DNA of 36,500 bases from Candidatus Omnitrophota bacterium (GCA_016198905.1 JACQHR010000038.1:1-36500), one strand, 5' to 3'; positions 2,950-33,927 are shown, counted from the stretch's first letter. Translations and numbers: made by a program. Notes: generated from the sequence alone by a model not told the origin.

Positions 2950-3627
2950 GTGAGCATGCACACTCGGATTCTCATTGGCGTCGTCATCGGCACCTTGGTG
3001 GTGACCGCTGGAGCAGAGCATGTCGGGCATCGCGCACTCTGGAAGCGATACCAAGAGGCCATTGCCAGCCGTCAACAACTCACCTTGCAGTTCGGCGAAA
3101 TGCTCGCGACCCATGAGCAGATCAAACGCCAACTGTCGCGCGAACAGAACCATTCCCAGCAATTGACGCAGGCGCTGACAGACGCGCAGGCGAAGCTCGA
3201 GGACGTCTCAAGCCGGCTGGCACAGCAAGGCAAGACCGTCCGGGAACTTCAGATACGGCTTGCGTCGGTGCATGAGCAGATGGATCAGCTCCAGGGAGAA
3301 TTGGCGATGACGCTGGAAGCCAAACCCTCCACGGCAAGCGCGGATCGCACAGCACCCGTGCAATTGGAGCGGATCGTCGTGACCGATCCGGCGGCACCCA
3401 CCTTGCAGGGTCGCGTCATTTCCGTCCACAGAGATTGGAATTTCGTCGTCGTGGATCTGGGCTGGAACGCCGTGAAGATCGGCGAGACCGTCTCCATCTT
3501 CCGCAATGACCAGCTCCTCGCGAAGGCGCGCATCGATCGCGTCCAAGAAGGCGTGTGCGCGGCCACCGTGCTGCCGGAGTGGCAGAGCGCGGAAATCCAG
3601 GCCAATGATCTCGTGCGAGCGCTCTGA
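2950..3627 (+). CDS. Membrane-anchored coiled-coil protein with C-terminal beta-barrel-like domain
   Basis: A 225-residue protein of unknown function. It starts with an uncleaved signal/anchor (ILIGVVIGTLVVTAGAEHV), continues as a Gln/Glu-rich coiled coil (residues about 30-120), and ends in a small beta-rich domain starting GRVISVHRDWNFVVVDLG. This domain resembles the SH3-like C-terminal module seen in many uncharacterised envelope proteins. The GTG at 2950 was chosen because an AAGGAGGAG site (2936-2944) lies 5 nt before it; an ATG at 2956 is the alternative. The next gene begins 4 nt after its stop, so it is the first gene of an operon with two PilZ proteins and probably acts in the same envelope complex. 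Confidence 0.75.
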   Translation: MSMHTRILIGVVIGTLVVTAGAEHVGHRALWKRYQEAIASRQQLTLQFGEMLATHEQIKRQLSREQNHSQQLTQALTDAQAKLEDVSSRLAQQGKTVRELQIRLASVHEQMDQLQGELAMTLEAKPSTASADRTAPVQLERIVVTDPAAPTLQGRVISVHRDWNFVVVDLGWNAVKIGETVSIFRNDQLLAKARIDRVQEGVCAATVLPEWQSAEIQANDLVRAL

Positions 3628-3631
3628 GGCG

Positions 3632-5746
3632 ATGATGACGATCAAGCGCGATACCAACTGGAGAGGCCGCACGTGGGCGTGGGTCGTTGGGGTGGGCCTT
3701 GGGCTGGCGGCAGCCTCCGGGCAAAGCTTTTGCGCAGAGACGAGCAGCGCTGCACCGGTGAGCAAGACGCTCATCGTGCTGGCCTTGGATGCGCACGCCC
3801 CGGTGCCTCTTCGAACGACATTCCAAGAGACTCCACCGACGATCATCATCACCTTTCCTCGACAGCGCGTGACGGGGGCACTCCCTGAGCATTCGGCCGT
3901 GGGGGGCGGCGCCATTGCCTCCATTGCCGCGCGATACGACAGCCGTACGAGCTCGCAGTCGAAGCGATTCTTGGACTCCATCCGCATCGTCCTGAGCGGA
4001 CCCTATCAGTATCAGGTCGACTCGCAAGCCGGCCGCATTGTGATCGAGATTCAGCATCCCGCCTCCATCCGCAGCACGTCGGTAGAAGTGGGATTGAACG
4101 GCGGCACCGTGATCGGCGGAGTCGGCCAGCGGACGATGAATGAACGGTTCCGCGCCATGCAGGAAGCGTTGGCCAGCGCCACCCCGACACCCTGGACGCT
4201 GCAGCTCACGTCAGAGCTTGAACCAGGTTCGTCAGTGGCCTCATCGCTGCGTCGAGCCTCGCCCTCCATCAACGCACGTGCAGGCGCCACCCAGGGCTCT
4301 GCGAAGGCCTCGACCGCCCCGGTCATGTCGACGACCCTCGTGCGCCGGTGGACAGCGCAGACTCGTCCGCCATGGCCGGGTGCGACGGCGTGGTGGATCC
4401 TTGCGATTGGCGGGCTGATCGCCGCCGCCGGCGCTTGGCTTCTCGCGCGCCAGGATGTGCTTGGGACATTCGTGAATCGGCAGGCCTCGCGTGGGGCGAA
4501 TCCGCGATTGGCTTCCGGCGTGCTCCTCGTTGATGAGCTCGTGTGGAGGGCGTTTGAGCAGCAAGGGTATCAGCTGGTGATCGAAAGCGCGCTGACGCAG
4601 CCCCCGCTCGGGACGATGCGCGTCATCATCAAGGACGGAGACAAATCCGCGCTGCTCTTCGTCGGCAACGGCCCGTTCTTCGAGAAGCACACGGTTGAGC
4701 GATTCGTGCAGGCGATGCGGCACGCCGGCGTGGAGCGCGGATTTTTGGTCGCCGCGGGGTCGTTTACCGTGCCGGCCCAGCGCATGGCGAAGGCACACCA
4801 TGTCACGTTGGTGGCCCGGGAACAATTGACCGAGCTATTGACCCTCGGGGCACGCAGCGAGTACTTCACCAAGCAGTTGGAGCAGCAGCATGCCAAGCTG
4901 GAAGAGGCCCGCTCGACGCTGCGCCAGTATGAGAATGAGTTGGCCACGCTGCGCCGACAGCGCAACGAGGCGAGCTGGTATCTGGGTGAGGAGCGCGCCA
5001 AATCCGCCAAGCTCGAATTGGAATTGGAGCAGGCCGGCCAAGAGCTTCGTCGGCAGGAGGCGGATCTTCAGCGATGGGAACAAGAAGCCGCGAGCTTGCG
5101 CAAGCAGTGGGAAGAAAGCCAATGGTATCTTGGAGAATCCCATGCGCGCGTGCGCCATCTCGAATCGCAGCTCAGTGACCTCCAAGGAGCGACCCAACGT
5201 GCGGAGGCTGCAGAGCGGGCCAAGAACGAGGCGCAGTGGTATTTAGGCGAAGCGCACACGAAGCGCGAGCAGCTTGAGCAGGAGCTGGCCGGGCTGCGAG
5301 AGCGCGTGGAGCAGACGGTGAGCCAGGAACATGCGCTGCGCGAGACGCTCGCCGCGCTGAAGCAAGAACTCGAGGCGCTGCGCGCCTACGGTGAGCGGCG
5401 CGCCCAGATTCGGGTGCGCGTGGACGAGGCCCGCGTGGAGCTCTTCAATGGATCGGACGACCCGGTGTTCTCAGGGTCGCCGCGCGATCTGAGTGCCAGC
5501 GGCATCGGGCTGGACACGGACCAGGAGTTGCCAACGCTGCCTTCGTTTCGGATCCGTCTGCATGTGCCAAGCCAGGAGCCCATCGAATTCAGCGCCCAGC
5601 AGGTGTGGCAACGATCCTCGACGGACACCACTGAGCGCTATCACAGCGGCTATCAATGGCTTGAGCTGTCGGATTCGGCTCGAGCGCGCATGACGCAACT
5701 CGTCACGCAACTCATCGACACGGCTCAGACATCGTCATCCAGTTGA
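3632..5746 (+). CDS. Membrane protein: AMIN-like, Mrr-like, WYLGE coiled-coil repeats, PilZ
   Basis: A 704-residue multi-domain protein. Order: signal peptide (residues 1-30), a beta-rich AMIN-like domain (about 35-145), a Ser/Thr/Ala-rich linker, one transmembrane helix (about 254-273), a domain like the C-terminal part of Mrr restriction endonucleases (about 290-400; GFLVAAGSFTVPAQRMA) lacking the catalytic D-QxK residues, a long coiled coil with three WYLGE motifs (Trp at about 449, 498, 536), and a C-terminal PilZ domain (from about 588) with the c-di-GMP residues RRAQIR and DLSASG. Topology would put the AMIN part in the periplasm and PilZ in the cytoplasm. The ATG at 3632 follows a GAGG site. 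I infer that it carries a c-di-GMP signal across the inner membrane; the output is unknown. Confidence 0.8.
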   Translation: MMTIKRDTNWRGRTWAWVVGVGLGLAAASGQSFCAETSSAAPVSKTLIVLALDAHAPVPLRTTFQETPPTIIITFPRQRVTGALPEHSAVGGGAIASIAARYDSRTSSQSKRFLDSIRIVLSGPYQYQVDSQAGRIVIEIQHPASIRSTSVEVGLNGGTVIGGVGQRTMNERFRAMQEALASATPTPWTLQLTSELEPGSSVASSLRRASPSINARAGATQGSAKASTAPVMSTTLVRRWTAQTRPPWPGATAWWILAIGGLIAAAGAWLLARQDVLGTFVNRQASRGANPRLASGVLLVDELVWRAFEQQGYQLVIESALTQPPLGTMRVIIKDGDKSALLFVGNGPFFEKHTVERFVQAMRHAGVERGFLVAAGSFTVPAQRMAKAHHVTLVAREQLTELLTLGARSEYFTKQLEQQHAKLEEARSTLRQYENELATLRRQRNEASWYLGEERAKSAKLELELEQAGQELRRQEADLQRWEQEAASLRKQWEESQWYLGESHARVRHLESQLSDLQGATQRAEAAERAKNEAQWYLGEAHTKREQLEQELAGLRERVEQTVSQEHALRETLAALKQELEALRAYGERRAQIRVRVDEARVELFNGSDDPVFSGSPRDLSASGIGLDTDQELPTLPSFRIRLHVPSQEPIEFSAQQVWQRSSTDTTERYHSGYQWLELSDSARARMTQLVTQLIDTAQTSSSS

Positions 5747-5763: not shown

Positions 5764-6753
5764 ATGCAAGAGCGCCGCACGACGATCCGCGTTCCCCACC
5801 AAAGCCATATCCAGTACTGTCCCTCCGAAGACCTCCTGCCGCGCGATGGAGGATTGATTGATCTGAGCGAGCGCGGTGTGGGGCTGCTGACGTCTGAATC
5901 GCATCCAACCGGTGAAGCGATCACGATCACCCTATCGCTTCCTGGAGCGGAAGATTCTGTGACGGCAACGGGTGTCGTGCGTTGGTCGGCGGCGCCCGCA
6001 GGGCCATGGACGCGGCACCGCGTGGGGCTTGAGTGGACACCGCTCGCCCACACGACCCAGCAGCGCCTCCACGCATTTTTGTCGACGGCGACACGAGCCA
6101 CCACGCAGTCGTTCGGACTCTGGCAGGTCATTCGTCAAGAGTGGGCCCGTCACCGACTTGGGTTGATCGTCGGCATCGTTGGCGGTGCGGTGTTCTTGAT
6201 CGCAGGAGGCTGGTGGATGTACGGCCTGCGGGAAGAGAACCGGCAGCTGCAGATGGCCATCCGGCAGCGCAGTGAGACCATTCATCAATTGGCCCAACGC
6301 GATGCGGTGCTGCAGCAGGAGTTGCGTTTGGCCAAGACGCGTCTAGCCTCAACAAGCGAAGAAGTGGCACGGCTCGATTACGAAGCCCAACAGATGGAGC
6401 GGGGGATGCAGCAGTTGACGCATGACGTGGCCCGGTTCCAGCAATCCTACGGGCCGATCAAAGAAGAGCGTCATCGCTTGGCTCAACAGGTGCTGAGCCT
6501 GGAGCAGCAGCGTGCGAACTCGCCGAGCCTCTTCGTGTCTTCGCACGAGCTGCGGCGCGTCGTCCGCGAGACCCTTGTCGCGCACCGCCAGGCCAGACGT
6601 CAGCTGCGTCTCAAAGAATTTCGAGCGATCGAGCCGCAGCGTGCATCCGCTCGCAATGGTGGCTACGTGGTGCGGGATGGTCAGCCGACGACCAACACCT
6701 CAACCATGTGGATTCGCGTCCACGATCCTGAATCACTGCCGTCGGCACCCTAG
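5764..6753 (+). CDS. PilZ-domain membrane protein with coiled coil
   Basis: A 329-residue protein with an N-terminal PilZ domain (residues 3-110), showing the c-di-GMP contacts ERRTTIR and DLSERG. A transmembrane helix follows at about 132-155 (LIVGIVGGAVFLIAGGWWMY), then a long coiled coil (about 158-260) and a basic, low-complexity C-terminus. It begins 17 nt after the upstream PilZ gene in the same operon. The order PilZ-TM-coiled coil mirrors the neighbour (coiled coil-PilZ), and the three products probably interact through their coiled coils. The function is inferred: c-di-GMP-responsive regulation of an envelope process, perhaps motility, adhesion or secretion. Confidence 0.85.
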   Translation: MQERRTTIRVPHQSHIQYCPSEDLLPRDGGLIDLSERGVGLLTSESHPTGEAITITLSLPGAEDSVTATGVVRWSAAPAGPWTRHRVGLEWTPLAHTTQQRLHAFLSTATRATTQSFGLWQVIRQEWARHRLGLIVGIVGGAVFLIAGGWWMYGLREENRQLQMAIRQRSETIHQLAQRDAVLQQELRLAKTRLASTSEEVARLDYEAQQMERGMQQLTHDVARFQQSYGPIKEERHRLAQQVLSLEQQRANSPSLFVSSHELRRVVRETLVAHRQARRQLRLKEFRAIEPQRASARNGGYVVRDGQPTTNTSTMWIRVHDPESLPSAP

Positions 6754-6802
6754 AACCGGTTTCGTCTATTCCCCCGCAGTGTTGACCGCGTCACAGCACG
6801 GG

Positions 6803-7777
6803 TTACGGCGCGGGTGATCCGCCGGGTTGACCCGCGTCGGAAGGCTGTCGGCGCTCCTTCACGTACGTGCTCCCCTCAAACCGCTTCGCGTAGGATTTCA
6901 ATTCCGCCCCGATCGTCGCCACTTGCCCAGGATGGGTGAGCGGCTGCTTCTCGCTCGTGACGAGCGCAATCGCAATCGAGAGCAGCGGGACTTTCACGGG
7001 TTGTCCCTTACGATCGGTGGCCATGAGGTAGCCGCGCAAGCGGTCGTTCTCGTCATAGAATTGAGGCGCTTCGGCATCAAAGTCGCGAATGATGGCCCGG
7101 CACAACGCCTCGGCGCACCTCGTGGACGTGATCACGATGAAATCATCGCCCCCGATATGGCCCACGAAGTCTTCCGGGCTGCCATAGGCTTTGGAGGCGT
7201 GCAGCAGCACGGTGGCCGTCCGTTGGATGACATCATCTCCTCGCTTGAAGCCGTAGTGGTCGTTGAAGGCTTTAAAACGGTTGAGGTCCGCGTAGCACGC
7301 GGCGAAGGGCTGCTGCGAACTGATGCGCCGCTCCAACTCTCGCTGAATGGAGATATTGCCGGGGAGCTTTGTCAGCGGGTTGGCTTCGAGGTCGATCAAG
7401 GTGCGCCGCAACGCCATGTGGACGCGCGCGAGCAACTCCTGCGGCTCGAAGGGCTTCACGAGATAGTCATCGGCGCCGGCGTTGATGCCGTGCACCTTAT
7501 CCTGCAGTTCGCTTTTGCCGGTGAGCATGAGGACCGGAATGTGGCGCAGGAGCATGTCTTGCTTGATCTGCTCGCACAGCTCAGGGCCTGTCAGGTTGGG
7601 CATGATGCAATCGAGGATCATGAGATCCGGCGGGATAGCACGGACGGCCTCGAGCGCTTGCCGGCCGTCGACCGCTTCGGTGACGACGAATCCGGCCGGC
7701 TCCAGGATCGAGCGCAGGATATCCCGCAGATCGGGATCGTCATCCGCGATGAGAATGCGTCTGGCGTGAGGCGTCAT
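6803..7777 (-). CDS. Response regulator with GGDEF-type output (GGDDF)
   Basis: A 324-residue protein: receiver domain (residues about 7-120) with acidic pocket ADDD, phosphoacceptor Asp in LMILDCIMP and conserved Lys in LVKPF, then a GGDEF domain (about 140-300) with YADLNRFKAFND and the active-site variant GGDDF. The RxxD inhibitory site expected five residues before GGDDF is replaced by SPED, so product inhibition is probably absent. It may make c-di-GMP when phosphorylated, but activity of the variant is uncertain. The start at 7777 was chosen because it begins the receiver fold and follows GGAG, and it lies 7 nt after the stop of the histidine kinase. An in-frame extension upstream to 7867 would overlap that gene. 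Confidence 0.88.
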   Translation of the reverse strand: MTPHARRILIADDDPDLRDILRSILEPAGFVVTEAVDGRQALEAVRAIPPDLMILDCIMPNLTGPELCEQIKQDMLLRHIPVLMLTGKSELQDKVHGINAGADDYLVKPFEPQELLARVHMALRRTLIDLEANPLTKLPGNISIQRELERRISSQQPFAACYADLNRFKAFNDHYGFKRGDDVIQRTATVLLHASKAYGSPEDFVGHIGGDDFIVITSTRCAEALCRAIIRDFDAEAPQFYDENDRLRGYLMATDRKGQPVKVPLLSIAIALVTSEKQPLTHPGQVATIGAELKSYAKRFEGSTYVKERRQPSDAGQPGGSPAP

Positions 7778-7784
7778 CCGGCTC

Positions 7785-9323
7785 CTACGTCGTCGGCAAC
7801 GTGACGGTAAACGTGCTGCCTTTGCCTTTTTCCGAATCGACCGCAATCTGGCCGTGATGGGCTTCAATGATTCGTTTGACCAACGCGAGTCCTAGTCCGG
7901 TTCCGCGCACCTGCTGGTTGATCGGGTCATTCGCGCGATAGAACTCCTGAAAGAGCTTCGGCAGGTCCTCCTTCGGAATGCCGCAGCCGGTGTCCGTCAC
8001 CGTGGCAAGGAGCGTGTTCCCCTCTCGTTTTAATCCGAACCGGATCGACCCGCCCTCAGGAGTGTATTTGATCGCGTTGGAGAGCAGGTTGACGAAAACA
8101 CGCTGCAAGTGCTGGGTGTCCCCGAGCAGTTCCTTGACGCCGTCGCGATCGACGACGTACTGCAGGTGCTTAGCGTCCAGTTGGGGATGAATGACGTCGT
8201 GGATCGAGGTGAGGAATTCCTCAACCGGGATGGAGGCATGCTCCATCGTGATGCGTCCGGATTCGATGCGCGCGATGTCGAGCAGGTTGTTGATGAACTG
8301 CGTGAGCAGATCGGCGTGTTTTTCAATCTTTCTGATGCGTTCAACCTGAGGATCGGCAAGGCCGCCGAACTGTCCGCTGCCAAGCAGCGAGGCATAGCCT
8401 TTGATCGCGGCCAGGGGCGTGCGCAGCTCATGGGAAACCGCCGAGACGAAATCGCTCTTCGATTTGTTCAATCGCACCAAGACCGCGTTCACTTCGGCCA
8501 ATTCGCGCGTGCGGTCTTGCACTTTGCGTTCCAGCGCTTGCTGGGTCGTCCAGGATTGTTCGTACAACGCCGAGTTCTCGATGGAGGTGGCGATCTGGTT
8601 GGTGAGGATCGAGACGAGCTCCTCATCGGCCTTGATGTTGATCCCGCCGCTGTCCATGCGTCCAAGCAGCAAGCATCCCACCGGCCCGGTGTGCGGAATG
8701 ACGCCGGTCATGACGGCAAAAGACACCCCCAGCAGTTTCAAGAGCGTCTGATGGGCGGGATCCGTCGCGGATGATGGCTTGACGATCGTGGGGCCGGGAT
8801 GGCTCAGGAGCTGTTTCAATAACCCGCTGCGCTGCAGATGAGACGTGAGCTCCTCCGCTTCGGGTCGCGTGATCCCGACCAGCGATCCCCACTCCAACGT
8901 GTCGAGGGATCGGCTCATCCCTAAGAGGCCTTTGGAGAATCCAAAGTTCGTGACCACCGCCGCGTCGAGCTTGCTAAACACTTCCTCAGGCCGAAGGCTC
9001 ACTTGCAGCTGCCGTCCCAGCACGTGGAGCGACATGAGCGAGGCGAGGCGTCGGTCCAATTCTTCCTGCGTGTGGTGAAGCTCGACGTCGGTCCGAATGA
9101 TGTGCTTGGCTTGCTGATCGAGCTGGGTATACGCATCCCGCAGCCGTTGGAGCTCGGCCAAGTGTCGTCGGGCCGCTTCTGCTTTCACCGCGAGGTACGC
9201 GATGGAGCCGAGGAGCCCCACGGCAAGGCCGATCGCCTGGACGGAGAACTCCGTGCCCAAGGTGGCCACCCAGGCGAGCAAGATGGCGATGAAGAGGACG
9301 ATGTAATTGCCGTAGACGCCCAT
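7785..9323 (-). CDS. GAF-containing membrane sensor histidine kinase
   Basis: A 512-residue kinase. Two N-terminal transmembrane helices (residues about 5-45) are followed by a coiled segment, a GAF-like sensor domain (about 95-265), a second coiled segment, HisKA with the phosphorylated His in SAVSHELRTPLAAIKGY, and HATPase_c with the N box (LLSNAIKYTPEGG), G1 (DTGCGIP) and G2 (GTGLGLALVKRI). It is placed between the FIST gene (7-nt gap) and the response regulator (7-nt gap), which makes them a complete signalling operon. The partner response regulator is almost certainly the GGDEF protein downstream. The stimulus is unknown, but the FIST protein is the likely ligand sensor. Confidence 0.93.
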   Translation of the reverse strand: MGVYGNYIVLFIAILLAWVATLGTEFSVQAIGLAVGLLGSIAYLAVKAEAARRHLAELQRLRDAYTQLDQQAKHIIRTDVELHHTQEELDRRLASLMSLHVLGRQLQVSLRPEEVFSKLDAAVVTNFGFSKGLLGMSRSLDTLEWGSLVGITRPEAEELTSHLQRSGLLKQLLSHPGPTIVKPSSATDPAHQTLLKLLGVSFAVMTGVIPHTGPVGCLLLGRMDSGGINIKADEELVSILTNQIATSIENSALYEQSWTTQQALERKVQDRTRELAEVNAVLVRLNKSKSDFVSAVSHELRTPLAAIKGYASLLGSGQFGGLADPQVERIRKIEKHADLLTQFINNLLDIARIESGRITMEHASIPVEEFLTSIHDVIHPQLDAKHLQYVVDRDGVKELLGDTQHLQRVFVNLLSNAIKYTPEGGSIRFGLKREGNTLLATVTDTGCGIPKEDLPKLFQEFYRANDPINQQVRGTGLGLALVKRIIEAHHGQIAVDSEKGKGSTFTVTLPTT

Positions 9324-9330
9324 GACACCC

Positions 9331-10524
9331 TCACGTGCCTAGCGCAACAACCAGCACCGATCCGGTTTGGATGGCGGTGCGTTCGTACGCCGATTCATGA
9401 CCCAAGGGGGCCTGCTCACCATAGGTATAACAGCCTGCGAGAGGGACCGAGGGTCCGACGGCCTCTCGGATGCGCGCGATTTCCAACGCGGCGCATCGTG
9501 ACCCGAGGAGTGTTCGACGGACCGCGGAATCAAAGATCAGCACGCACGCCACATGGTTGAGCGGCCGCACGGCCTGTTGCGCGGCCTTCGACGCCGCTTC
9601 AAGGGCGAGCTCGCGACTACCGATCATGAGTTGCAACCACGCATCTTCGAAGATCTCTCCGCTGCAGGCCAAGCTGCCGTCTCCTTCGAAGGAGATGACG
9701 TTGCGCAGCAGCCACTGCGTGCTGGCGTCCCGCTGGATGCCCAGCGGATACGCAATCGCCTGGCGCGTGAGCCCTTCCCGCCGCATCCGAGCCACCAACT
9801 CGGGACCGAAGTATTCTTCATAGACCGAGGCAGCCGGTTGATGGTCGAGCTCCAGCAGCCGATTGGCGCTGGCGCGCGTGATGCGGCGCGGTTTGCTGAT
9901 CGGCAGAAACCCATGCTCGATCCCCACGCCAAGCTTCACCGGGCCGCCGACCAAGACGCCGACGACCGCTCGGCTGAGCACGCGGCCGTCACAATACTGA
10001 TAGGTTTTCGTAAATCGCAGATCATCACCCGCCATGCCGCCCACAATCAGCGCGCTGGTGCCCAACGTTTCTTGGATGCCGCGGACGACCTCCGCATAGC
10101 TGGTGACGAGCCCATCGCCGAAGAGGAGAAATCCTGCGCGCTGGCGCGCTTGGAATCCGCGCACGGCGGCATACGCGGCTTGCTGGCCGGCTTCGCGCGG
10201 GGCGCGATCAATTTCCGCGTCCATGCCGGTGCTGCACCATGGCGCGGACGCCCCAAGCAGGACCACGACGCAGCTGTGGCTCGACGGACCTTGAGTGGTG
10301 ATCTCGCCCGCCGTGCTCTCGCCGACGAGCGGGACGTCTCCCAACACGGAACGCACGCCTTGCAGCAACGCGGTTTGCCTGAACCACGATGAGCCAAACA
10401 CGATCGCCAGCTGCGGCGTGACACACGACAGCTGATCCCTCGCCTGCTGCGCGGCTTCGGCGCCGGCCTGAGCCGCATCGGGGCGTTCACTCCATCCAAT
10501 AGTCGCGGTCAGCGTTTCAGACAT
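9331..10524 (-). CDS. FIST sensor domain protein
   Basis: A 397-residue soluble protein with FIST N (residues about 1-210) and FIST C (about 215-380) domains. Recognisable blocks include VFGSSWF near the N-terminus, GESTAGEI, the central GGMAGDD and the C-terminal LAGCYTYGE and GHESAYERTA. FIST is a proposed sensor of small ligands such as amino acids, usually linked to signalling proteins. The ATG at 10524 begins a family-like N-terminus (MSETLTATIGWS); it lies 9 nt after a TATACT box and has no ribosome site, so translation is probably leaderless. First gene of the FIST-kinase-regulator operon. Confidence 0.9.
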   Translation of the reverse strand: MSETLTATIGWSERPDAAQAGAEAAQQARDQLSCVTPQLAIVFGSSWFRQTALLQGVRSVLGDVPLVGESTAGEITTQGPSSHSCVVVLLGASAPWCSTGMDAEIDRAPREAGQQAAYAAVRGFQARQRAGFLLFGDGLVTSYAEVVRGIQETLGTSALIVGGMAGDDLRFTKTYQYCDGRVLSRAVVGVLVGGPVKLGVGIEHGFLPISKPRRITRASANRLLELDHQPAASVYEEYFGPELVARMRREGLTRQAIAYPLGIQRDASTQWLLRNVISFEGDGSLACSGEIFEDAWLQLMIGSRELALEAASKAAQQAVRPLNHVACVLIFDSAVRRTLLGSRCAALEIARIREAVGPSVPLAGCYTYGEQAPLGHESAYERTAIQTGSVLVVALGT

Positions 10525-10533
10525 ACTACTGTG

Positions 10534-10563
10534 AGTATATCTGATCGGCTTGGCGGTAACCAA
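10534..10563 (-). promoter_or_regulatory. Promoter of the FIST operon
   Basis: On the minus strand, TATACT (10539-10534) ends 9 nt before the ATG. A weak -35 TTGGTT (10563-10558) is 18 bp upstream. The transcript would start at or within a few bases of the start codon. Confidence 0.45.
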
Positions 10564-10633
10564 ATCGTGGACTGAGAGTTAGGTGAAATTTGCCACGGGA
10601 AAAATAGTCGGCGGTTGATGGGAAAAAGAGGAG

Positions 10634-12064
10634 TTAGCGGGCCATCGGTTCGGTGTGGTGCCGCTTGTGCGCGTAGAGCGATTGGTCCGCCGCTTCAAGG
10701 ATCTCTTGAGCGCCGGCATAGTTCGATTCAATTTCGCCGATCCCGACGCTGAGGCTCACCGGCGGCACGCCGCGTCCGTCGCCCTCTGGGATCGGAATGC
10801 GCAGTTGGCGCAGCTTCTCGGCAACCGCGGCCGCGTTGGCATGGCTCGTTTCCGGCAAGGCGATCACGAATTCATCCCCGCCGAAGCGGGCCAAGATGTC
10901 CGACTGGCGCAGCATGGTTGTAAGTTCTTGGGCCACCTGTTTGAGCACGAGATCACCGGCGTGGTGGCCGAGATGGTCGTTCACTTGCTTGAAGCCGTTG
11001 ACATCAATCATCAGGCATGCGAGCGGGCGCTGATACCGCTTGGCGCGTTCGCATTCCCAATCCCAACGGTTGAGGAAAAATCGGCGGTTGTACAAGCCGG
11101 TCAGCTCATCCGTGATCGCCATGTGCCGCAGCCGAGTCGTGACGCGGCGAAGAGCCGCCGTCCGGCGCGTGACGGCGCGCTGCAGAATCCACGTGCGAGC
11201 CGCAAAGATCCAAATGAGCATCGTGACTCCGCAGCCGGCGACGACGCTTAAGGCCACGAGGAGCACGTTGAACCAGGACAGCGTCTGCACGACGCTGGTG
11301 TGGCCCGGCTGCATCTGGAGCGTCCAGCGGGCTGCATCGAGGTTCACGCGCCGTTCCTCAAGAATCGGAGGCGGGTCCTTGGTTGTGGCCTGCCAGCCGC
11401 TTGAGCGATAAAGGAGTGTTTCGTCGCTGAGCAGTTGGACCGGATACCGTGCGGGGAGAGTTGAGGAGAAGAAATCCTCAAAGAAGGTGTGCAAATCAAA
11501 GACGCCGAGCACGGCGCTTTGCCGGTACGACGGCGCCCGCAGCGGTTCCAACATCACGAGGAGCACGCGAGTTTTTCCCGCAGGGACAACGAACGTGGAA
11601 GGGACGCGCCACACGCCCGGTGTTTGCGTTCGTGTCACGATCGCACGCGTGAGTTGTGCGCGTTCTGCTGTGGAGACGCTCTTCGGTTCGACCCACCACG
11701 TCGGCGGCTGGGATGCCCGGATGATAGCCGTGCCGAGCAGGTGTCGTGTATGCTCGACCGCGCTGGCACCCAGTGCGCGCTGCTGGTCGAGGGTCAGATC
11801 GGATTGCCGGTTGAGCGTGTCACGCAGCAGCGTGAGCGTGCCTCGACGGCTCTGCAACGACCGCATCAGCTGATCGCCGGTCTGCTGCAAGATCGCGGTG
11901 GTGTCGTGCTGCATCGCCTGCTGGCCGCGCCAATGGATCATCGTGATCAACCCGATCAACACCACGCTGATGAAGAGCGTTGCGGCAGAGGCGATGAGGA
12001 TGCGCCGATATCGTTTTGCAGTCAGGAGAATGAAGCTGTCTCGAACCTGGTTACTGACCTGCAT
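10634..12064 (-). CDS. Membrane diguanylate cyclase with periplasmic sensor
   Basis: A 476-residue protein: transmembrane helix at about 22-44, a periplasmic region of about 210 residues with CHASE-like character but no family I can name, a second helix at about 262-288, then GGDEF (about 310-470). The catalytic GGDEF is intact (ARFGGDEFVIALPET) and preceded by an I-site RQSD with the correct five-residue spacing, so it should make c-di-GMP from two GTP and be feedback-inhibited. It stands alone: a stem-loop separates it from the upstream gene, and a TAGAAT box sits 6 nt before the ATG. No clear -35 accompanies that box. Confidence 0.93.
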   Translation of the reverse strand: MQVSNQVRDSFILLTAKRYRRILIASAATLFISVVLIGLITMIHWRGQQAMQHDTTAILQQTGDQLMRSLQSRRGTLTLLRDTLNRQSDLTLDQQRALGASAVEHTRHLLGTAIIRASQPPTWWVEPKSVSTAERAQLTRAIVTRTQTPGVWRVPSTFVVPAGKTRVLLVMLEPLRAPSYRQSAVLGVFDLHTFFEDFFSSTLPARYPVQLLSDETLLYRSSGWQATTKDPPPILEERRVNLDAARWTLQMQPGHTSVVQTLSWFNVLLVALSVVAGCGVTMLIWIFAARTWILQRAVTRRTAALRRVTTRLRHMAITDELTGLYNRRFFLNRWDWECERAKRYQRPLACLMIDVNGFKQVNDHLGHHAGDLVLKQVAQELTTMLRQSDILARFGGDEFVIALPETSHANAAAVAEKLRQLRIPIPEGDGRGVPPVSLSVGIGEIESNYAGAQEILEAADQSLYAHKRHHTEPMAR

Positions 12065-23424: not shown

Positions 23425-25737
23425 ATGCATAGAACGATCGGTTACATCTCGAAACGATTCGTCCAGATTCAGCCGGGCGAAGGCCGCAAGGTTCTTCTCA
23501 CCTTCCTGTACTTCTTCCTCATCATCACCGCGTACTACGTGATCAAGCCGGTGAGCCGCTCTCTTATCCTCGGCGACCTCGGCTCGAGGATGATCCCCTA
23601 CATGGATCTCATCTGCGCGATCCTCATGGGCCCGCTCGTGACACTCTTTGCGCGCCTCGTGGACCGGATCTCGAAACCGCGGTTGGTCACGTACTCGTTC
23701 TGGACGGTCACCGGCATCCTGCTCCTGTTCTGGGCGCTGTTGGGCGGCACCTTCCCGGTGGTGACCGGCGCGTTCTACATCTGGGTGGCGATCTTCTCGG
23801 TGCTGGTGGTCACCCTGTTCTGGCTGGTGGCGAATGACCTCTACCATCCGCGCGAGGCGAAGCGATTGTTCGGCTTCATCGGATCGGGCGGCATTCTCGG
23901 AGGCATCGTGGGCTCTTCCATTGCGGCGATGGGCGCGCAGGTGATGGGGACTCGGCATCTGCTGTTGCTCTCCGCAGGGCTACTCATGCTGTGTTGGGTG
24001 GTGGTCGAACAACTCTGGCGTTTAGCTCCTGTGCACGAGGCGGCGGAACCGGTAGCGCGGCGCCATGAAACCTTTCTGGCGCATCCCAAGGCGTTTGCGA
24101 AACTCATCCTGCAGTCGCGGTACCTGATGCTGCTGATCGCGCTCGTGGGGTTGAGCAAGATCGTCTCCACGCTCGTCTACTATCAGTTCAATCCCTTCAT
24201 CGAGCAGATGTTTCCGGATGCAAACGCCAGGACGACGTTCACCGGGATGTTTTTCGGCGGCATGAACATCGCCGCGTTTGTGATTCAGTTCTTCTTCACC
24301 AGCTGGATTCTTCGGCGCTGGGGGTTGCCCGTGGCGTTGCTGGCGCTGCCGATCGGGCTGCTGGCCGGCACGACGACCCTGCTGTGCCTGCCGGTGTTTC
24401 TGTGTGCGGCCGGCGTCGAGCTGTACGACGGGTCGATGAACTACTCACTGCAGCAGACGACGAAAGAAGTGCTCTACCTGCCGATCGATCGCTCGATCCG
24501 GTACAAGGTCAAGCCGTTCATCGACATGGTCGTGTTTCGCTTCGGAAAGGGGATCGCGGCGGTGATCGGGATTCTCATGCTCGATTGGCTGCATCTGCCT
24601 GCGCGCGTCCTGGGGTATCTGTCGGTGCCGCTGCTCATCGCGTGGGTCGTCGTCGCGGTATGGCTGCGGCGAGACTATATCGCGACGATTCGCACGATGC
24701 TGCAGGCGCGCGCCCAGGCCAAGCGCCGCTCCACGCCGACGGCGTTGTTGAACGAGGCCGACGCGGTGGGCACCGTCTCGAGCGCGGAGCTCATCGAGCT
24801 CTTTGGCTCGCTGACGGATGGTCAGCCGTCAGGGAAGAAGCTGGAGCTGCTCGATCGCCTGATGAGCGGCAAGCGCGTGCCGGCGACTCAAATGAAGGAG
24901 CTCCTGACGGAGCTGACCGCGTACGAAGCGCGGTTGGCCAACCCGCTGGAGCTTGAAGCGCAGATTCCGCAGCTGAAGACGGTCATCGGCAGCCAACGCG
25001 AATCGATGGCCAAACGCCGGCAGGCCATCCGGCTGCTCGCGCGGCTTCCCAGCCAGGACACCGTCGACTATCTCTTCGGCATCATCTTGCTTGAGGGCGA
25101 TGCGGTGTTGCGCGAGGAAGCCGTGAAGGGGTTGGTGAAGTTGCGGCTGCACGGGGTGCGGTTCGATTTTCCCGCGGAAGCGATTCGGCGGCAGATCGCG
25201 CATGAAAGGGAGAATTACCAGCGGGTGATCCATGTGGCGACGGTGTATCGCCAGCATCATCCCGGCGCGCTCGACGCGGATGATCCGGTGCTGGCCCTGC
25301 TGCGCGTCTTGATGGAAGAGTCCATGGAGCAAATCTTTCGTTTGCTCATGTTGCTCTATCGTCCGGAGGATATCCACCTCATCTACGAGCAGCTGCGCGC
25401 CCCGGAGCCTTTCATCCGCGCGGATGCCATCGAGCTGCTCGATAACCTCGTGGATTCGTCGACCCGCGCGTTGTTGTTCCCCATCTTGGATGACGATCCG
25501 TTGCTGTTCTTCTCGGAGCAGCGCTCTGCGCAGGTCCATGAGCCCGCGGCGGCCTACCGCGTGTTGCAGGAGGCGATCTGGGATCACAATTGCTGGCTGA
25601 GCGTGACGACGTTGTGCGCGGTCGGACACTTGCAATTGAGCACGATGCGCCAGGAGCTGGAAAAGGCCTCGCGTCAGCGCACTCCCATCCTCGCGATGGC
25701 CGCGAAAGTCGCCCTGCATCTGTCGAGCTTGCCGTAA
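23425..25737 (+). CDS. NTT/Npt-type nucleotide carrier with HEAT-like C-terminal domain
   Basis: A 770-residue protein. Residues about 10-430 form a 12-helix domain with the start ISKRFVQIQPGEGRKVLLTFLYFFLI, TAYYVIKPVSRSLIL and later WLVANDLYHPREAKRLFGFIGSGGILGGIVGS, matching the NTT (ATP/ADP translocase-like) family. The second part (about 450-770) is soluble and helical with repeated hydrophobic periodicity, as in HEAT-repeat-fused NTT proteins. Function: exchange or transport of nucleotides, as in chlamydiae, but the free-living members are uncharacterised. Start at 23425 is by similarity; upstream in-frame bases are repeat DNA. It is followed 1 nt later by a kinase-like lipoprotein gene. 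Confidence 0.85.
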   Translation: MHRTIGYISKRFVQIQPGEGRKVLLTFLYFFLIITAYYVIKPVSRSLILGDLGSRMIPYMDLICAILMGPLVTLFARLVDRISKPRLVTYSFWTVTGILLLFWALLGGTFPVVTGAFYIWVAIFSVLVVTLFWLVANDLYHPREAKRLFGFIGSGGILGGIVGSSIAAMGAQVMGTRHLLLLSAGLLMLCWVVVEQLWRLAPVHEAAEPVARRHETFLAHPKAFAKLILQSRYLMLLIALVGLSKIVSTLVYYQFNPFIEQMFPDANARTTFTGMFFGGMNIAAFVIQFFFTSWILRRWGLPVALLALPIGLLAGTTTLLCLPVFLCAAGVELYDGSMNYSLQQTTKEVLYLPIDRSIRYKVKPFIDMVVFRFGKGIAAVIGILMLDWLHLPARVLGYLSVPLLIAWVVVAVWLRRDYIATIRTMLQARAQAKRRSTPTALLNEADAVGTVSSAELIELFGSLTDGQPSGKKLELLDRLMSGKRVPATQMKELLTELTAYEARLANPLELEAQIPQLKTVIGSQRESMAKRRQAIRLLARLPSQDTVDYLFGIILLEGDAVLREEAVKGLVKLRLHGVRFDFPAEAIRRQIAHERENYQRVIHVATVYRQHHPGALDADDPVLALLRVLMEESMEQIFRLLMLLYRPEDIHLIYEQLRAPEPFIRADAIELLDNLVDSSTRALLFPILDDDPLLFFSEQRSAQVHEPAAAYRVLQEAIWDHNCWLSVTTLCAVGHLQLSTMRQELEKASRQRTPILAMAAKVALHLSSLP

Positions 25738-25738
25738 C

Positions 25739-27052
25739 GTGAACCTGCCATTTTCGATAGCGCAGCGTCAGATTCTGCGGCACGCCGCTGTTTTGTCGCT
25801 CGTATTCTGTGTGACCGGCTGCGCGTCATGGCCGCGCAGTTGGGGGGCGCGCCCGTGTTGCATCCAAGCCAAACCGGTCGTGCATCGCGAGCCGGTGTGG
25901 TGGCATCTCTTCGATGTCACCGTGGTCTCCCAGGTCGAAAACAGTTTCGAGCTGGCTCGCGTGGGTCGCCGGCTGTTTGGCTCTCCGGTGCGCGCCCAGA
26001 ATCTGCACGACGGGTATGTGGGCAACAGCGCCTTTTTTACCGATCGCGATCCGGTGGAGCTCTCCCTGGAGCAGGTGCGCTGGGGACCGACCCGTCCGGA
26101 TGACGTGGCCGTCGCGCCCTTCACGATCACGAAACCGAAAACCGAAGGCAAGACGCCGGGATTGTTCGTCACGGATGCGCGCGGCCGTCGCTACTTGCTC
26201 AAGCTCGATCCGATCGAGGCCCCGGAGCTGCTCTCCGGTGCCGAGGTGGTGACCAGCAAGCTGCTGTATGCGCTGGGCTACCATGTGCCCGGCTACGAGG
26301 TCGGGTTCATCACACCCGGCGAGTTGCAGATCGCCTCCCCTGCGACGCACCACGATGGACGCGGCGTGTCACCTCCATTTACCGACGAGGCGTTGCGCGC
26401 CATCGTCGAGCCGCGGCTGCGCGATGGGGTCATGCGGGTCGGCGTGACCAAAATCTTGGAAGGGGACATCCTGGGCCCGGCGCGCTTTAAACGGTTTCGC
26501 GATTGCGCGGAAATCCGCGCGTTGCGCGTGGCGTACGCGTGGCTGAACAATATCGACGCGAAGGATCACAACTCGCTGCTGGTCTGGAACGGGCGCGAAA
26601 CGGTCGGCTATCTCATCGATTTTGGCACGTCGCTCGGCGCGGATGCCGGAGCGGCGGGTCCGAAGCAGCCGTGCGCGGGATGGACGAACATCGTGGATCT
26701 TCAGGAAGCCTCACTCACATTCCTGACGCTGGGATGGCATCATCCGACGTGCGATGTGCAGCGCAATCCGGAGAGCTCGAGTGTAGGCCTGTTTTCGCCG
26801 CACGTGAATCCGGATCGATGGAAACCTTATGCGCCGAACCTGGCGTTTCAGGAAATGACGGAGTCCGATGCGCGCTGGATCGCGCGTCGCATGGCGCGTC
26901 TGACGCGCGCGCAGATCACAGCGGCCGTGTCAGCCGGGCAGTATCATGATCCGGCCGATGCGGCGTACCTCGTCAACATGCTGGAGCAGCGCCGGCGCGC
27001 CATCATCTCGCAGTATCTTGACGACCCATCACAGGAGGACCCAACGCCATGA
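25739..27052 (+). CDS. Lipoprotein with HipA/FAM20-like kinase motifs
   Basis: A 437-residue protein not assigned to a named family. A signal peptide ends in a lipobox (LSLVFCVTGC, Cys28), so the product is lipidated and extracytoplasmic. Kinase-fold hallmarks appear in order: Lys155 in YLLKLDP, Glu169 in SGAEVVTSKLLY, a catalytic loop NNIDAKDHNS (Asp273/Asp276-His277-Asn278, like HipA) and DFG (294-296). This resembles atypical kinases (HipA, FAM20, PI3/4-kinase-like). The GTG at 25739 is 1 nt after the NTT stop, and the stop overlaps the start of the carbonic anhydrase (ATGA), so it sits in a tightly coupled operon. The substrate is unknown. Confidence 0.62.
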   Translation: MNLPFSIAQRQILRHAAVLSLVFCVTGCASWPRSWGARPCCIQAKPVVHREPVWWHLFDVTVVSQVENSFELARVGRRLFGSPVRAQNLHDGYVGNSAFFTDRDPVELSLEQVRWGPTRPDDVAVAPFTITKPKTEGKTPGLFVTDARGRRYLLKLDPIEAPELLSGAEVVTSKLLYALGYHVPGYEVGFITPGELQIASPATHHDGRGVSPPFTDEALRAIVEPRLRDGVMRVGVTKILEGDILGPARFKRFRDCAEIRALRVAYAWLNNIDAKDHNSLLVWNGRETVGYLIDFGTSLGADAGAAGPKQPCAGWTNIVDLQEASLTFLTLGWHHPTCDVQRNPESSSVGLFSPHVNPDRWKPYAPNLAFQEMTESDARWIARRMARLTRAQITAAVSAGQYHDPADAAYLVNMLEQRRRAIISQYLDDPSQEDPTP

Positions 27053-28260: not shown

Positions 28261-28278
28261 CCTCAGCTGAGGTATAAT
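28261..28278 (+). promoter_or_regulatory. Promoter with adjacent operator-like palindrome
   Basis: TATAAT at 28273-28278 is directly preceded by the 12-bp palindrome CCTCAGCTGAGG (28261-28272), which fills the position upstream of the -10 box. No recognisable -35. The start codon at 28289 is 10 nt downstream, so the mRNA is probably leaderless. A repressor or activator could bind the palindrome. Confidence 0.5.
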
Positions 28279-28288
28279 GCCACCCGCG

Positions 28289-29299
28289 ATGCACCTCGGA
28301 CTCGCCTTCGATCTTCAAACCGATCCCAGCGACGAGCGGCAGGCGGAGTTTGATCCGCAGTCGACCATTGACGCGCTGCGCCAGGCGCTCGAAGCGCAGG
28401 GCCATCATGTCAGCTTAGTAGGCAATGCGTCGGCGTTGCTGCAGGGGCCGGCGCGTTGCTGCGACGTCGATCTCATCTTTAATATCGCCGAGGGCGCGCA
28501 CGGGCGCTGCCGGGAAGCGTGGGCGCCGATGCTGCTCGAACTCTATCACATTCCCTATGTGGGATCGGATGCGTTAGCACTCGGTCTCGCGCTGGATAAG
28601 GTGATGATGAAACGGTTGGCGGTGGCCGATGGCGTGCCGACACCTCGATGGATCAGCATCGATGATCCCGCGCTGCTTCCGAAGGCGCTGTCGTTTGGTT
28701 TTCCCGTCATCGTCAAGCCGCGATGGGAAGGCTCAGGGCGCGGGATCAATCAGCACGCGGTGGTGCACACGCCTGAGGCGTTGCGCCAGCGAGTCCAGTG
28801 GCTCTACAACCGGGTCCAACAACCCATTCTCATTGAAGAGTTCATCGCCGGAGGAGAATTGACCGTTTGTATCATCGGCAACACGCCGCCGGTCGTCTAT
28901 CCGGCGATCCAACGACCGCTCGATCCAGCGACGACACTGTCCTATCACGTGGTGAAGCCGTCGCCGGCCACGTGGGTGGCCCCGCTCATCCTGGAGCCGT
29001 TATTGGATCAACAGGCTTGCGAGATCGCGCGAACGATGTTTGACGCGATTGGGTGTCGGGACATGGCGCGCGTCGATCTGCGCGTCGATGCGCACGGGCG
29101 CGTGCAGTTTCTGGAGATCAATCCGCTGCCGTCGTTTGATCCCGAGGGGAGCCTCGGCTTGCTGGCCGAATCGCTCGGCGTCACGTACGATGAGATGATC
29201 GGCAGCATTCTCGACGCGGCCCTGGGGCGCTTCGGGTATCCGTCACGACACCGTTCAACCGACGCGCCGATGGCATTAAGCGGGCACACCAACTCATGA
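28289..29299 (+). CDS. ATP-grasp enzyme, D-alanine-D-alanine ligase-related
   Basis: A 336-residue ATP-grasp protein. Shows FNIAEGAHGRCREAWAPMLLELYHIPYVGSD, DKVMMKRLAVADGVPTP, VIVKPRWEGSGRGI (nucleotide-binding Lys), EEFIAGGELTVCIIGN (ADP-forming site) and the Mg site LEINPLPS. It lacks the N-terminal GG-x-S-x-E start of true Ddl, so it is a Ddl-related ligase joining an unknown amino acid, not necessarily peptidoglycan Ddl. The ATG at 28289 was chosen: the earlier ATG at 28277 overlaps the -10 box. Its TGA overlaps the ATG of the methyltransferase, implying a joint pathway. Confidence 0.8.
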   Translation: MHLGLAFDLQTDPSDERQAEFDPQSTIDALRQALEAQGHHVSLVGNASALLQGPARCCDVDLIFNIAEGAHGRCREAWAPMLLELYHIPYVGSDALALGLALDKVMMKRLAVADGVPTPRWISIDDPALLPKALSFGFPVIVKPRWEGSGRGINQHAVVHTPEALRQRVQWLYNRVQQPILIEEFIAGGELTVCIIGNTPPVVYPAIQRPLDPATTLSYHVVKPSPATWVAPLILEPLLDQQACEIARTMFDAIGCRDMARVDLRVDAHGRVQFLEINPLPSFDPEGSLGLLAESLGVTYDEMIGSILDAALGRFGYPSRHRSTDAPMALSGHTNS

Positions 29300-32772: not shown

Positions 32773-33927
32773 ATGAAACCGCCAACCCGACCGTCAGGCC
32801 GCTCGATCCGCACCCCCCAAGGCTATACCGCCTTTGTTCCGGATCCGCTACCTCCCAAGGTGGAATGGACGCCGGTCCTGACCCGGGCGCTCTCGGATGC
32901 GGATCGCCTGATCGGCCAGCTAGCCGGGGAGGGCGGGCAACTGCCGAATCCGCACGTCTTGATTCGTCCATTTGTGCGTCGGGAAGCCGTCTTGTCCAGC
33001 CGGATTGAGGGGACCCGGGCGACGTTGGGAGAACTGTTGGCGGCTGAGGCGGGCGCCACGGTAGAGCGCAGTCCGGATGATCTGCGCGAGGTGGCCAACT
33101 ACGTCAAGGCGTTGGAGCAGGGGGTGAAGCGGCTCAAGACGCTGCCCTTGTCGCTACGGCTCATGCGCGAGCTGCATGCGACACTCATGGCGGGCGTGCG
33201 CGGGGAGCGCGCGACGCCAGGCGAGTTTAGGCGATCACAGAACTGGATCGGGCCGCCAGGCTGTACGCTGGCCAACGCGTCGTATGTGCCGCCTCCCGTG
33301 GAGGAGATGACGGAGTGCCTGGGTGCGTGGGAGCGGTTCTTGCATGACCGCTCGCTGCCCCCGTTGGCACAGGTCGCGTTCCTGCACTATCAGTTTGAAG
33401 CCATTCACCCGTTCCTCGATGGCAATGGCCGCGTAGGGCGGTTGCTGATTACGCTGTTTCTAGTCGAGCGGGAGATCCTGCCAAGCCCTTTGCTGTACCT
33501 GAGTGCCTTTTTTGAAGCCGCCCGGCGCGACTACTATGAGCGGCTGCAGGGAGTGACCGAACAGAGCGATTGGGAAGGCTGGCTGCAGTACTTCTTAAAC
33601 GGCGTCTCCAGGCAATCCGAGGACGCGCTTGGCCGCGCGGCCAAGATCAACCAGCTGCTGGCCGCATGGCGCAAGGCGGCTGCCGACACGTCCTCCAAAG
33701 TACCGTTGAGGTTGGTGGACACCTTGGCGGCGAACCCCTACCTGACCCTCACCGGTGCTGCTCGTCAGCTCAAGGTGGCGTTCACGACGGTCCAGCGGGC
33801 GGCAGAGCATTTGCAGAAACTTGGCATCGTCAAGGAAGTAAGTGGTCAGCAACGCAACCGGGTTTACTGCGCGACGTCGCTGTTGTCGATTCTTGAAGCA
33901 CCGGCGCAACTGTCACCGAACTTGTAA
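32773..33927 (+). CDS. Fic family protein with inhibitory helix and winged-helix tail
   Basis: A 384-residue protein. The N-terminal inhibitory motif (S/T)xxxE(G/N) is present as SSRIEG (residues 75-80), so it is a class II (N-terminally self-inhibited) Fic. The catalytic loop HPFLDGNGRVGRLL (His212) is intact, predicting AMP or NMP transfer to a target protein. Residues about 305-375 form a winged-helix DNA-binding domain (LTLTGAARQLKVAFTTVQRAAEHLQKLGIV). The same architecture is common in chromosomal Fic proteins. It is single-gene and in an accessory region, so it may belong to a toxin-like or regulatory module. Confidence 0.93.
   Translation: MKPPTRPSGRSIRTPQGYTAFVPDPLPPKVEWTPVLTRALSDADRLIGQLAGEGGQLPNPHVLIRPFVRREAVLSSRIEGTRATLGELLAAEAGATVERSPDDLREVANYVKALEQGVKRLKTLPLSLRLMRELHATLMAGVRGERATPGEFRRSQNWIGPPGCTLANASYVPPPVEEMTECLGAWERFLHDRSLPPLAQVAFLHYQFEAIHPFLDGNGRVGRLLITLFLVEREILPSPLLYLSAFFEAARRDYYERLQGVTEQSDWEGWLQYFLNGVSRQSEDALGRAAKINQLLAAWRKAAADTSSKVPLRLVDTLAANPYLTLTGAARQLKVAFTTVQRAAEHLQKLGIVKEVSGQQRNRVYCATSLLSILEAPAQLSPNL

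Follow-up and report, generated by a model that had tools for sequence, protein, structure and literature searches.

A nucleotide carrier of the NTT-HEAT type linked to an exported kinase-fold protein in Omnitrophota: a proposed module for ATP supply outside the cytoplasm

The periplasm is normally without ATP, and from which source periplasmic enzymes could obtain it is an open question. A locus from the Omnitrophota, i.e., tiny uncultured bacteria, raises this question anew. The window studied here, 36,500 nucleotides long, corresponds to contig G000:C34 in full; the genome it belongs to measures 1.41 Mb and is 80% complete. A sequence-only reading of it had paired a nucleotide carrier with a kinase-like lipoprotein and had suggested that the former could provide the latter with ATP. 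The ends of both open reading frames agree with the extents given there, including the gap of one base (25738) between them. At its 3' end, the lipoprotein frame shares 4 bases with the following gene, which is gamma-carbonic-anhydrase-like and starts at 27049. The features used in the following are listed here (positions within the window, strand, description).

23425-25737, +, carrier ORF (ATG 23425, TAA 25735-25737)
23425..24714, +, NTT/TLC membrane domain, about residues 1-430 (PF03219, E 1.2e-21; profile matches to 9j3n/9j3j)
24547..24549, +, carrier Lys375, aligned with AtNTT1 K527 (structure-profile alignment)
24715..25737, +, C-terminal HEAT-repeat-like carrier region, through the TAA (PF13646, E 1.3e-5; alphaRep/HEAT-like chains)
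25739..27052, +, kinase-fold lipoprotein, 437 aa (GTG start 25739, stop 27052)
25820..25822, +, lipobox Cys28 (sequence; conserved in the home order)
26159..26161, +, Gly141 of the nucleotide-loop-like segment TPGxF (invariant in carrier-linked copies)
26201..26203, +, Lys155, putative ATP-binding lysine by alignment (conservation)
26243..26245, +, Glu169, candidate partner glutamate (conservation)
26555..26557, +, Asp273, putative catalytic aspartate (conservation)
26570..26572, +, Asn278, putative metal-binding Asn at D+5 (conservation)
26618..26620, +, Asp294 of DFG (conservation)

Here and below, home order and home family denote taxonomic groups of the source genome and are to be distinguished from gene order.

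The N-terminal part of the carrier belongs to the Pfam family TLC (77.6 bits, cut-off 21), and the carrier's profile matches the NTT1 structures 9j3n (E 2.5e-28) and 9j3j (E 6e-13). Further downstream, HEAT_2 is found at residues 527-574 with 25.8 bits, i.e., just under its cut-off of 27.7, and profile search relates residues 652-765 to alphaRep/HEAT-like PDB chains. Judged by this succession of an NTT domain and HEAT repeats, the carrier is a member of the NTT-HEAT fusion subfamily of Major et al. 2017, which is widespread, including in free-living bacteria, and has no characterised member (PMC5381601). The genomic partner described for NTT-HEAT proteins is a cyclic-nucleotide-binding domain; a kinase partner is not reported there (PMC5381601).

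Whether such a carrier moves ATP can be approached via AtNTT1, for which K155, E245, E385 and K527 are essential for ATP/ADP exchange (PMC3306366, PMC10654386) and where the K155E variant binds neither ADP nor ATP (PMC3306366). We placed this quartet on the 9j3j alignment by spacing, with a single offset of 84 fitting all four residues. The respective carrier residues are D61, A122, Y252 and K375. That is, only the K527 equivalent is kept (1/4), so that the carrier is not of the AtNTT1 quartet type. Lys375 is invariant in alignments of related carriers, and the E385 position is Asp in most aligned carrier copies of the other Omnitrophota class discussed below. The replacement of three out of four essential residues speaks for a reading in which the transported substrate is another nucleotide, or a compound resembling one, that the kinase-fold protein uses or phosphorylates, i.e., the module would be real without supplying ATP. 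It is also in line with NAD transport by PamNTT4, an NTT of another clade, and with the lack of any characterised NTT-HEAT protein (PMC5381601). We nevertheless consider this reading quite improbable, given that the ATP-type set of the kinase core is complete and that it is these residues which decay after carrier loss (see below).

The lipoprotein carries an N-terminal signal and a VTGC lipobox at residues 25-28, as bacterial lipoproteins do, and xxGC recurs in almost every home-order relative whose N-terminus can be read, which bears out the Cys28 lipobox noticed earlier. Together with the lipobox, the near-invariant cysteines C256, C312 and C338 of the home-order proteins (alignment, n=18) are consistent with an exported protein. 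In the other class, some N-termini resemble ordinary signal peptides. The location outside the cytoplasm assumed by the sequence-only reading is thus supported at the level of predicted export signals.

Within the 18 aligned home-order sequences, K155, E163, E169, D273, K275, D276, D294, F295 and G296 are invariant; among these are all the kinase-like positions named before, i.e., K155, E169, D273, D276 and the DFG at 294-296. The expectation that this core is conserved across homologues holds for K155, D273 and D294 down to about 30% identity and fails for D276, which is restricted to the home order. At that distance, the conserved core consists of K155, D273-x4-N278 and D294, and DFG often reads DFN. 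N278, which was not among the residues singled out earlier, belongs to this core and is located at D+5 as in HRDxxxxN. The set expected of a kinase (K, catalytic D, N at D+5 and a DFG-type D) is therefore present with K155, D273, N278 and D294.

An AlphaFold model of the lipoprotein, built from an alignment of 47 diverse sequences, reached a pLDDT of 92.9 and a pTM of 0.93. Foldseek ranks Fam20/Golgi casein kinase (4kqa, E 1.2e-4) at the top of the PDB matches and also finds CtkA (probability 1.00, TMt 0.54), followed by Fam20C, HipT, PI3-kinase-type and ordinary protein kinases, such that nearly all listed matches are kinases. A viral structure library contributes, among others, phage proteins with PI3/4-kinase and serine/threonine kinase annotations. 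The global TM-scores of the kinase matches are modest (0.3-0.54), which argues for a separate, distant kinase family. At the profile level, HipA_2 (PF20613) matches 12/18 home-order sequences (best E 5e-4) and, counted at E up to 1, 24/47 diverse relatives (best E 4.6e-4). Its gathering cut-off of 27 bits is not reached, with 18.4 bits for the best relative shown and no match for the window protein. Neither the lipoprotein nor its relatives match Fam20 or CotH in Pfam, so that membership in the Fam20 profile family is not found. Single-sequence searches of the lipoprotein (Pfam, NCBIfam, PHROGs, PDB) gave nothing useful, i.e., profiles and structure are required, and a deeper lipoprotein profile against PDB sequences returned chance matches only. 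On the basis of the predicted model, the lipoprotein has a protein-kinase-like fold, as had been proposed.

In terms of known families, the protein resembles HipA/HipT/CtkA, which provide its best sequence matches (HipA_2 PF20613, HipA_C PF07804) and structural matches (CtkA, HipT). It differs from them in being exported, in its length of about 440-550 aa and in scoring under the Pfam cut-offs; furthermore, its neighbourhoods hold no HipB antitoxin partner but the carrier and, elsewhere, a barrel. With CotH/Fam20 it shares the character of an atypical kinase outside the ordinary cytosolic setting, Fam20 being the top PDB match, whereas it has no Fam20 or CotH match in Pfam. We know of no carrier link for CotH/Fam20 kinases.

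To what extent carrier and kinase belong together was surveyed in 285 Omnitrophota genomes. The kinase is found in 53 genomes, the carrier in 41 and both in 38, i.e., 38/41 carrier genomes also encode the kinase (Fisher p 2e-31, ignoring the relatedness of the genomes). For 36 of the 38 genomes with both, the two genes are on the same strand within 2.3 kb, either carrier-first or kinase-first. Homologues far from NTT genes had been named beforehand as an outcome that would speak against the pairing; for genomes with both genes, the survey found linkage instead. Within the home family, carrier and kinase are adjacent in every case with both on a contig. Since synteny there extends over the entire block, GGDEF through methyltransferase, this adjacency is weak evidence and we set it aside.

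This synteny is what one would expect if the two genes were neighbours by inherited order with no functional tie. The linkage, however, persists in another class, in a different order and with an extra gene between, presence and absence of both genes are correlated, and carrier loss predicts kinase lesions. Inherited gene order is thus already disfavoured, and we deem it highly improbable as an explanation. In the other class, the kinase comprises about 550 aa and an Omp85-type barrel of 440 aa (PF01103) is encoded in front of it; the gene orders are NTT-barrel-kinase or barrel-kinase-NTT. Such an outer-membrane barrel accompanies every kinase found outside the home order. Within the home order, no dedicated barrel adjoins the carrier-kinase pair, and a search for a dedicated Omp85 barrel in the home family yielded no more than BamA-sized matches plus some small barrels that are unlinked. 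These data support that the carrier linkage survives rearrangement across Omnitrophota, and they confirm the carrier-kinase pairing as more than chance.

Two further observations concern the gene content of these loci. In some other-class loci, a small lipoprotein-like gene follows the carrier and precedes the barrel (L100:4479-5009, DUF5329; L107:5947-6687); the module may include a small DUF5329-type lipoprotein as a fourth part. In the home-family genome G006 (L099:4381-7316), the kinase gene is missing cleanly, and the gamma-carbonic-anhydrase gene directly follows the carrier.

The other class also offers natural cases of carrier loss. Among 49 of its genomes, the kinase is found in 47 and the carrier, by a sensitive profile, in 32. 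With the carrier in front of the barrel, the locus reads MurA-TrmD-RplS-RnhB-YraN-NTT-barrel-kinase; at least 10 genomes of the class show the same MurA...YraN-barrel-kinase string with the NTT missing between YraN and barrel. For each kinase copy we scored K155, D273, N278 and D294, leaving out two copies with obstructing contig ends. Carrier-linked copies are intact in 46 cases and altered in one (N278Q, G013), while 3 unlinked copies are intact and 15 altered. The intact unlinked copies are those of G090, with a carrier at another locus, and of G095 (93% complete) and G146 (69% complete), in both of which no carrier was found. Written in the order K155-D273-N278-D294, the lesions read E-D-D-D, R-E-N-D, K-N-N-G, R-D-T-S, K-R-N-D, K-G-N-D and E-D-N-D in different lineages, which implies that decay arose several times. 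Within the largest carrier-less clade, the lesions vary from subclade to subclade, as would be expected if the carrier was lost first and the kinase decayed afterwards.

Degenerate kinase copies are kept beside the Omp85-type barrel after carrier loss (L148-L158, L116, L163), which makes a further role of the kinase-fold protein probable, one that involves the barrel but no catalysis. Taken further, the persistence of barrel and degenerate copies without the carrier could mean that the lipoprotein is a non-catalytic pseudokinase or a scaffold for an outer-membrane barrel throughout. Given that the core of the carrier-linked copies, including that of the window, is under near-absolute constraint (46/47), we assign very little weight to this reading.

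A divergent second kinase-barrel paralogue is found in G094, G100 and G075 (L117, L181, L184). It has Asp273 replaced by Gly and is never carrier-linked; Glu163 and Glu169 are altered in its two readable copies.

At the level of copies, linkage and intactness are strongly associated (Fisher p 6e-11), the copies being related to each other. On the tree, we count 8 unlinking events, 5 of them with lesions, and 0 in the opposite direction. Among independent pairs, both traits change together in 4-5, never in opposite directions, and 2-3 pairs show no difference. The respective tree-aware sign test gives p 0.06-0.125, with only 4-5 informative pairs. Considering single substitutions, 14/15 catalytic ones fall on carrier-less branches, which make up 8.3 of 42.7 length units (19%; binomial p 1.3e-9). 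Carrier-less copies evolve faster at 39 other conserved sites too (51 events on carrier-less branches vs. 40), so the fair contrast is that between catalytic and control sites, i.e., an enrichment with p 0.008 and not 1e-9. The control set of 39 sites still includes the ATP-site positions G141, K134, E163 and E169. These four change on carrier-less branches only, with 4 substitutions for G141, while D146, D157, G180, G246, G300, W380, R418 and G116 show zero changes. We read this pattern as a decayed ATP site within a retained fold in carrier-less copies. Overall, the substitutions suggest a tie between the carrier and catalysis by the kinase, with decay mostly where the carrier was lost.

Carrier loss and kinase decay could also share a common cause. 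One such reading assumes that the carrier imports nucleotides from a host or prey; this external ATP would also be used or sensed by the kinase-fold protein, and both would be lost or decay when the ATP-rich niche is left. It accounts for the co-decay as well as a supply model does, and Seymour et al. 2023 count the ATP/ADP translocases found in two Omnitrophota classes among the symbiosis factors (PMC10066038). Taken alone, it leaves the tight linkage in two gene orders unexplained. Furthermore, NTT-HEAT fusions also occur widely among bacteria that live freely (PMC5381601), and carrier-plus genomes are no smaller than carrier-minus genomes of the same class. We therefore regard import as unlikely, while granting it some weight. 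An energy-parasite reading based on genome reduction is not supported, since genome sizes do not differ.

What we favour, with somewhat more confidence than doubt, is that both genes form one module in which the NTT-HEAT exchanger feeds an exported kinase-fold protein acting on an envelope or surface target. The inner-membrane NTT-HEAT protein would exchange nucleotides, in the simplest case cytosolic ATP out and ADP in. A 1:1 exchanger suits this job, since one ADP is returned per ATP delivered. The delivered ATP would feed the exported protein with the kinase fold, which is a lipoprotein in the home order and which in turn would phosphorylate a target in the envelope or at the surface; where an Omp85-type barrel is the partner, i.e., outside the home order, this barrel would be the first candidate. 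ATP as the substrate, the outward direction as well as kinase activity and target are what we infer here. The more specific version, i.e., a dedicated system of extracytoplasmic phosphorylation where the exchanger exports ATP and a dependent exported kinase acts on outer-membrane proteins such as the Omp85-type barrel, is plausible, yet we lean slightly against it. Points against the supply model are the AtNTT1 quartet with 1/4 kept, the intact kinases of G095 and G146 without a carrier, and the carrier of G006 without a kinase.

Among the closest known arrangements is AXER/SLC35B1, an ATP/ADP exchanger of the ER that supplies ATP to enzymes of an extracytoplasmic compartment (PMC6113206). As in the module proposed here, an exchanger is combined with enzymes outside the cytosol, in that case secretory-pathway kinases (Fam20C), and the lipoprotein is a distant relative of the Fam20 fold. 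AXER is eukaryotic, belongs to an unrelated carrier family, has unlinked genes and was measured for transport, whereas transport by the Omnitrophota carrier is only predicted. The Omnitrophota ATP/ADP translocases of Seymour et al. 2023 come from the same phylum and share the gene type K03301; they are read there as energy scavenging, and the passages found do not mention the kinase neighbour (PMC10066038). Our literature search on bacterial periplasmic ATP and carrier-fed kinases, with most subscription journals outside its coverage, found no described case.

Elsewhere in the window, the protein encoded at 3506-5746 (+) unites two domain matches in a single chain, one to an Mrr-type restriction endonuclease and one to PilZ (c-di-GMP-binding), which is an unusual combination. 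It is followed by a dense signalling region (5764-12064) with a PilZ protein, a response regulator with GGDEF, a histidine kinase, a FIST sensor and a GGDEF protein; two GGDEF proteins are also found near the carrier-kinase module. The conserved syntenic block includes a D-Ala-D-Ala-ligase-like ATP-grasp protein (28277-29299, +) that scores under the ligase cut-offs. For the Fic protein at 32773-33927 (+), L040 alone among the compared home-order neighbourhoods holds a close copy (78%) and L029 holds a weak one, i.e., the distribution of the gene looks patchy.

The proposed module provides a testable answer both to the question of periplasmic ATP supply and to that of NTT-HEAT function. The repeated loss of the carrier with kinase decay constitutes an internal control that is rare among genomic predictions. 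For the Omnitrophota, whose ATP/ADP translocases have been taken as signs of host dependence, it would mean that some of these carriers may export ATP rather than steal it.
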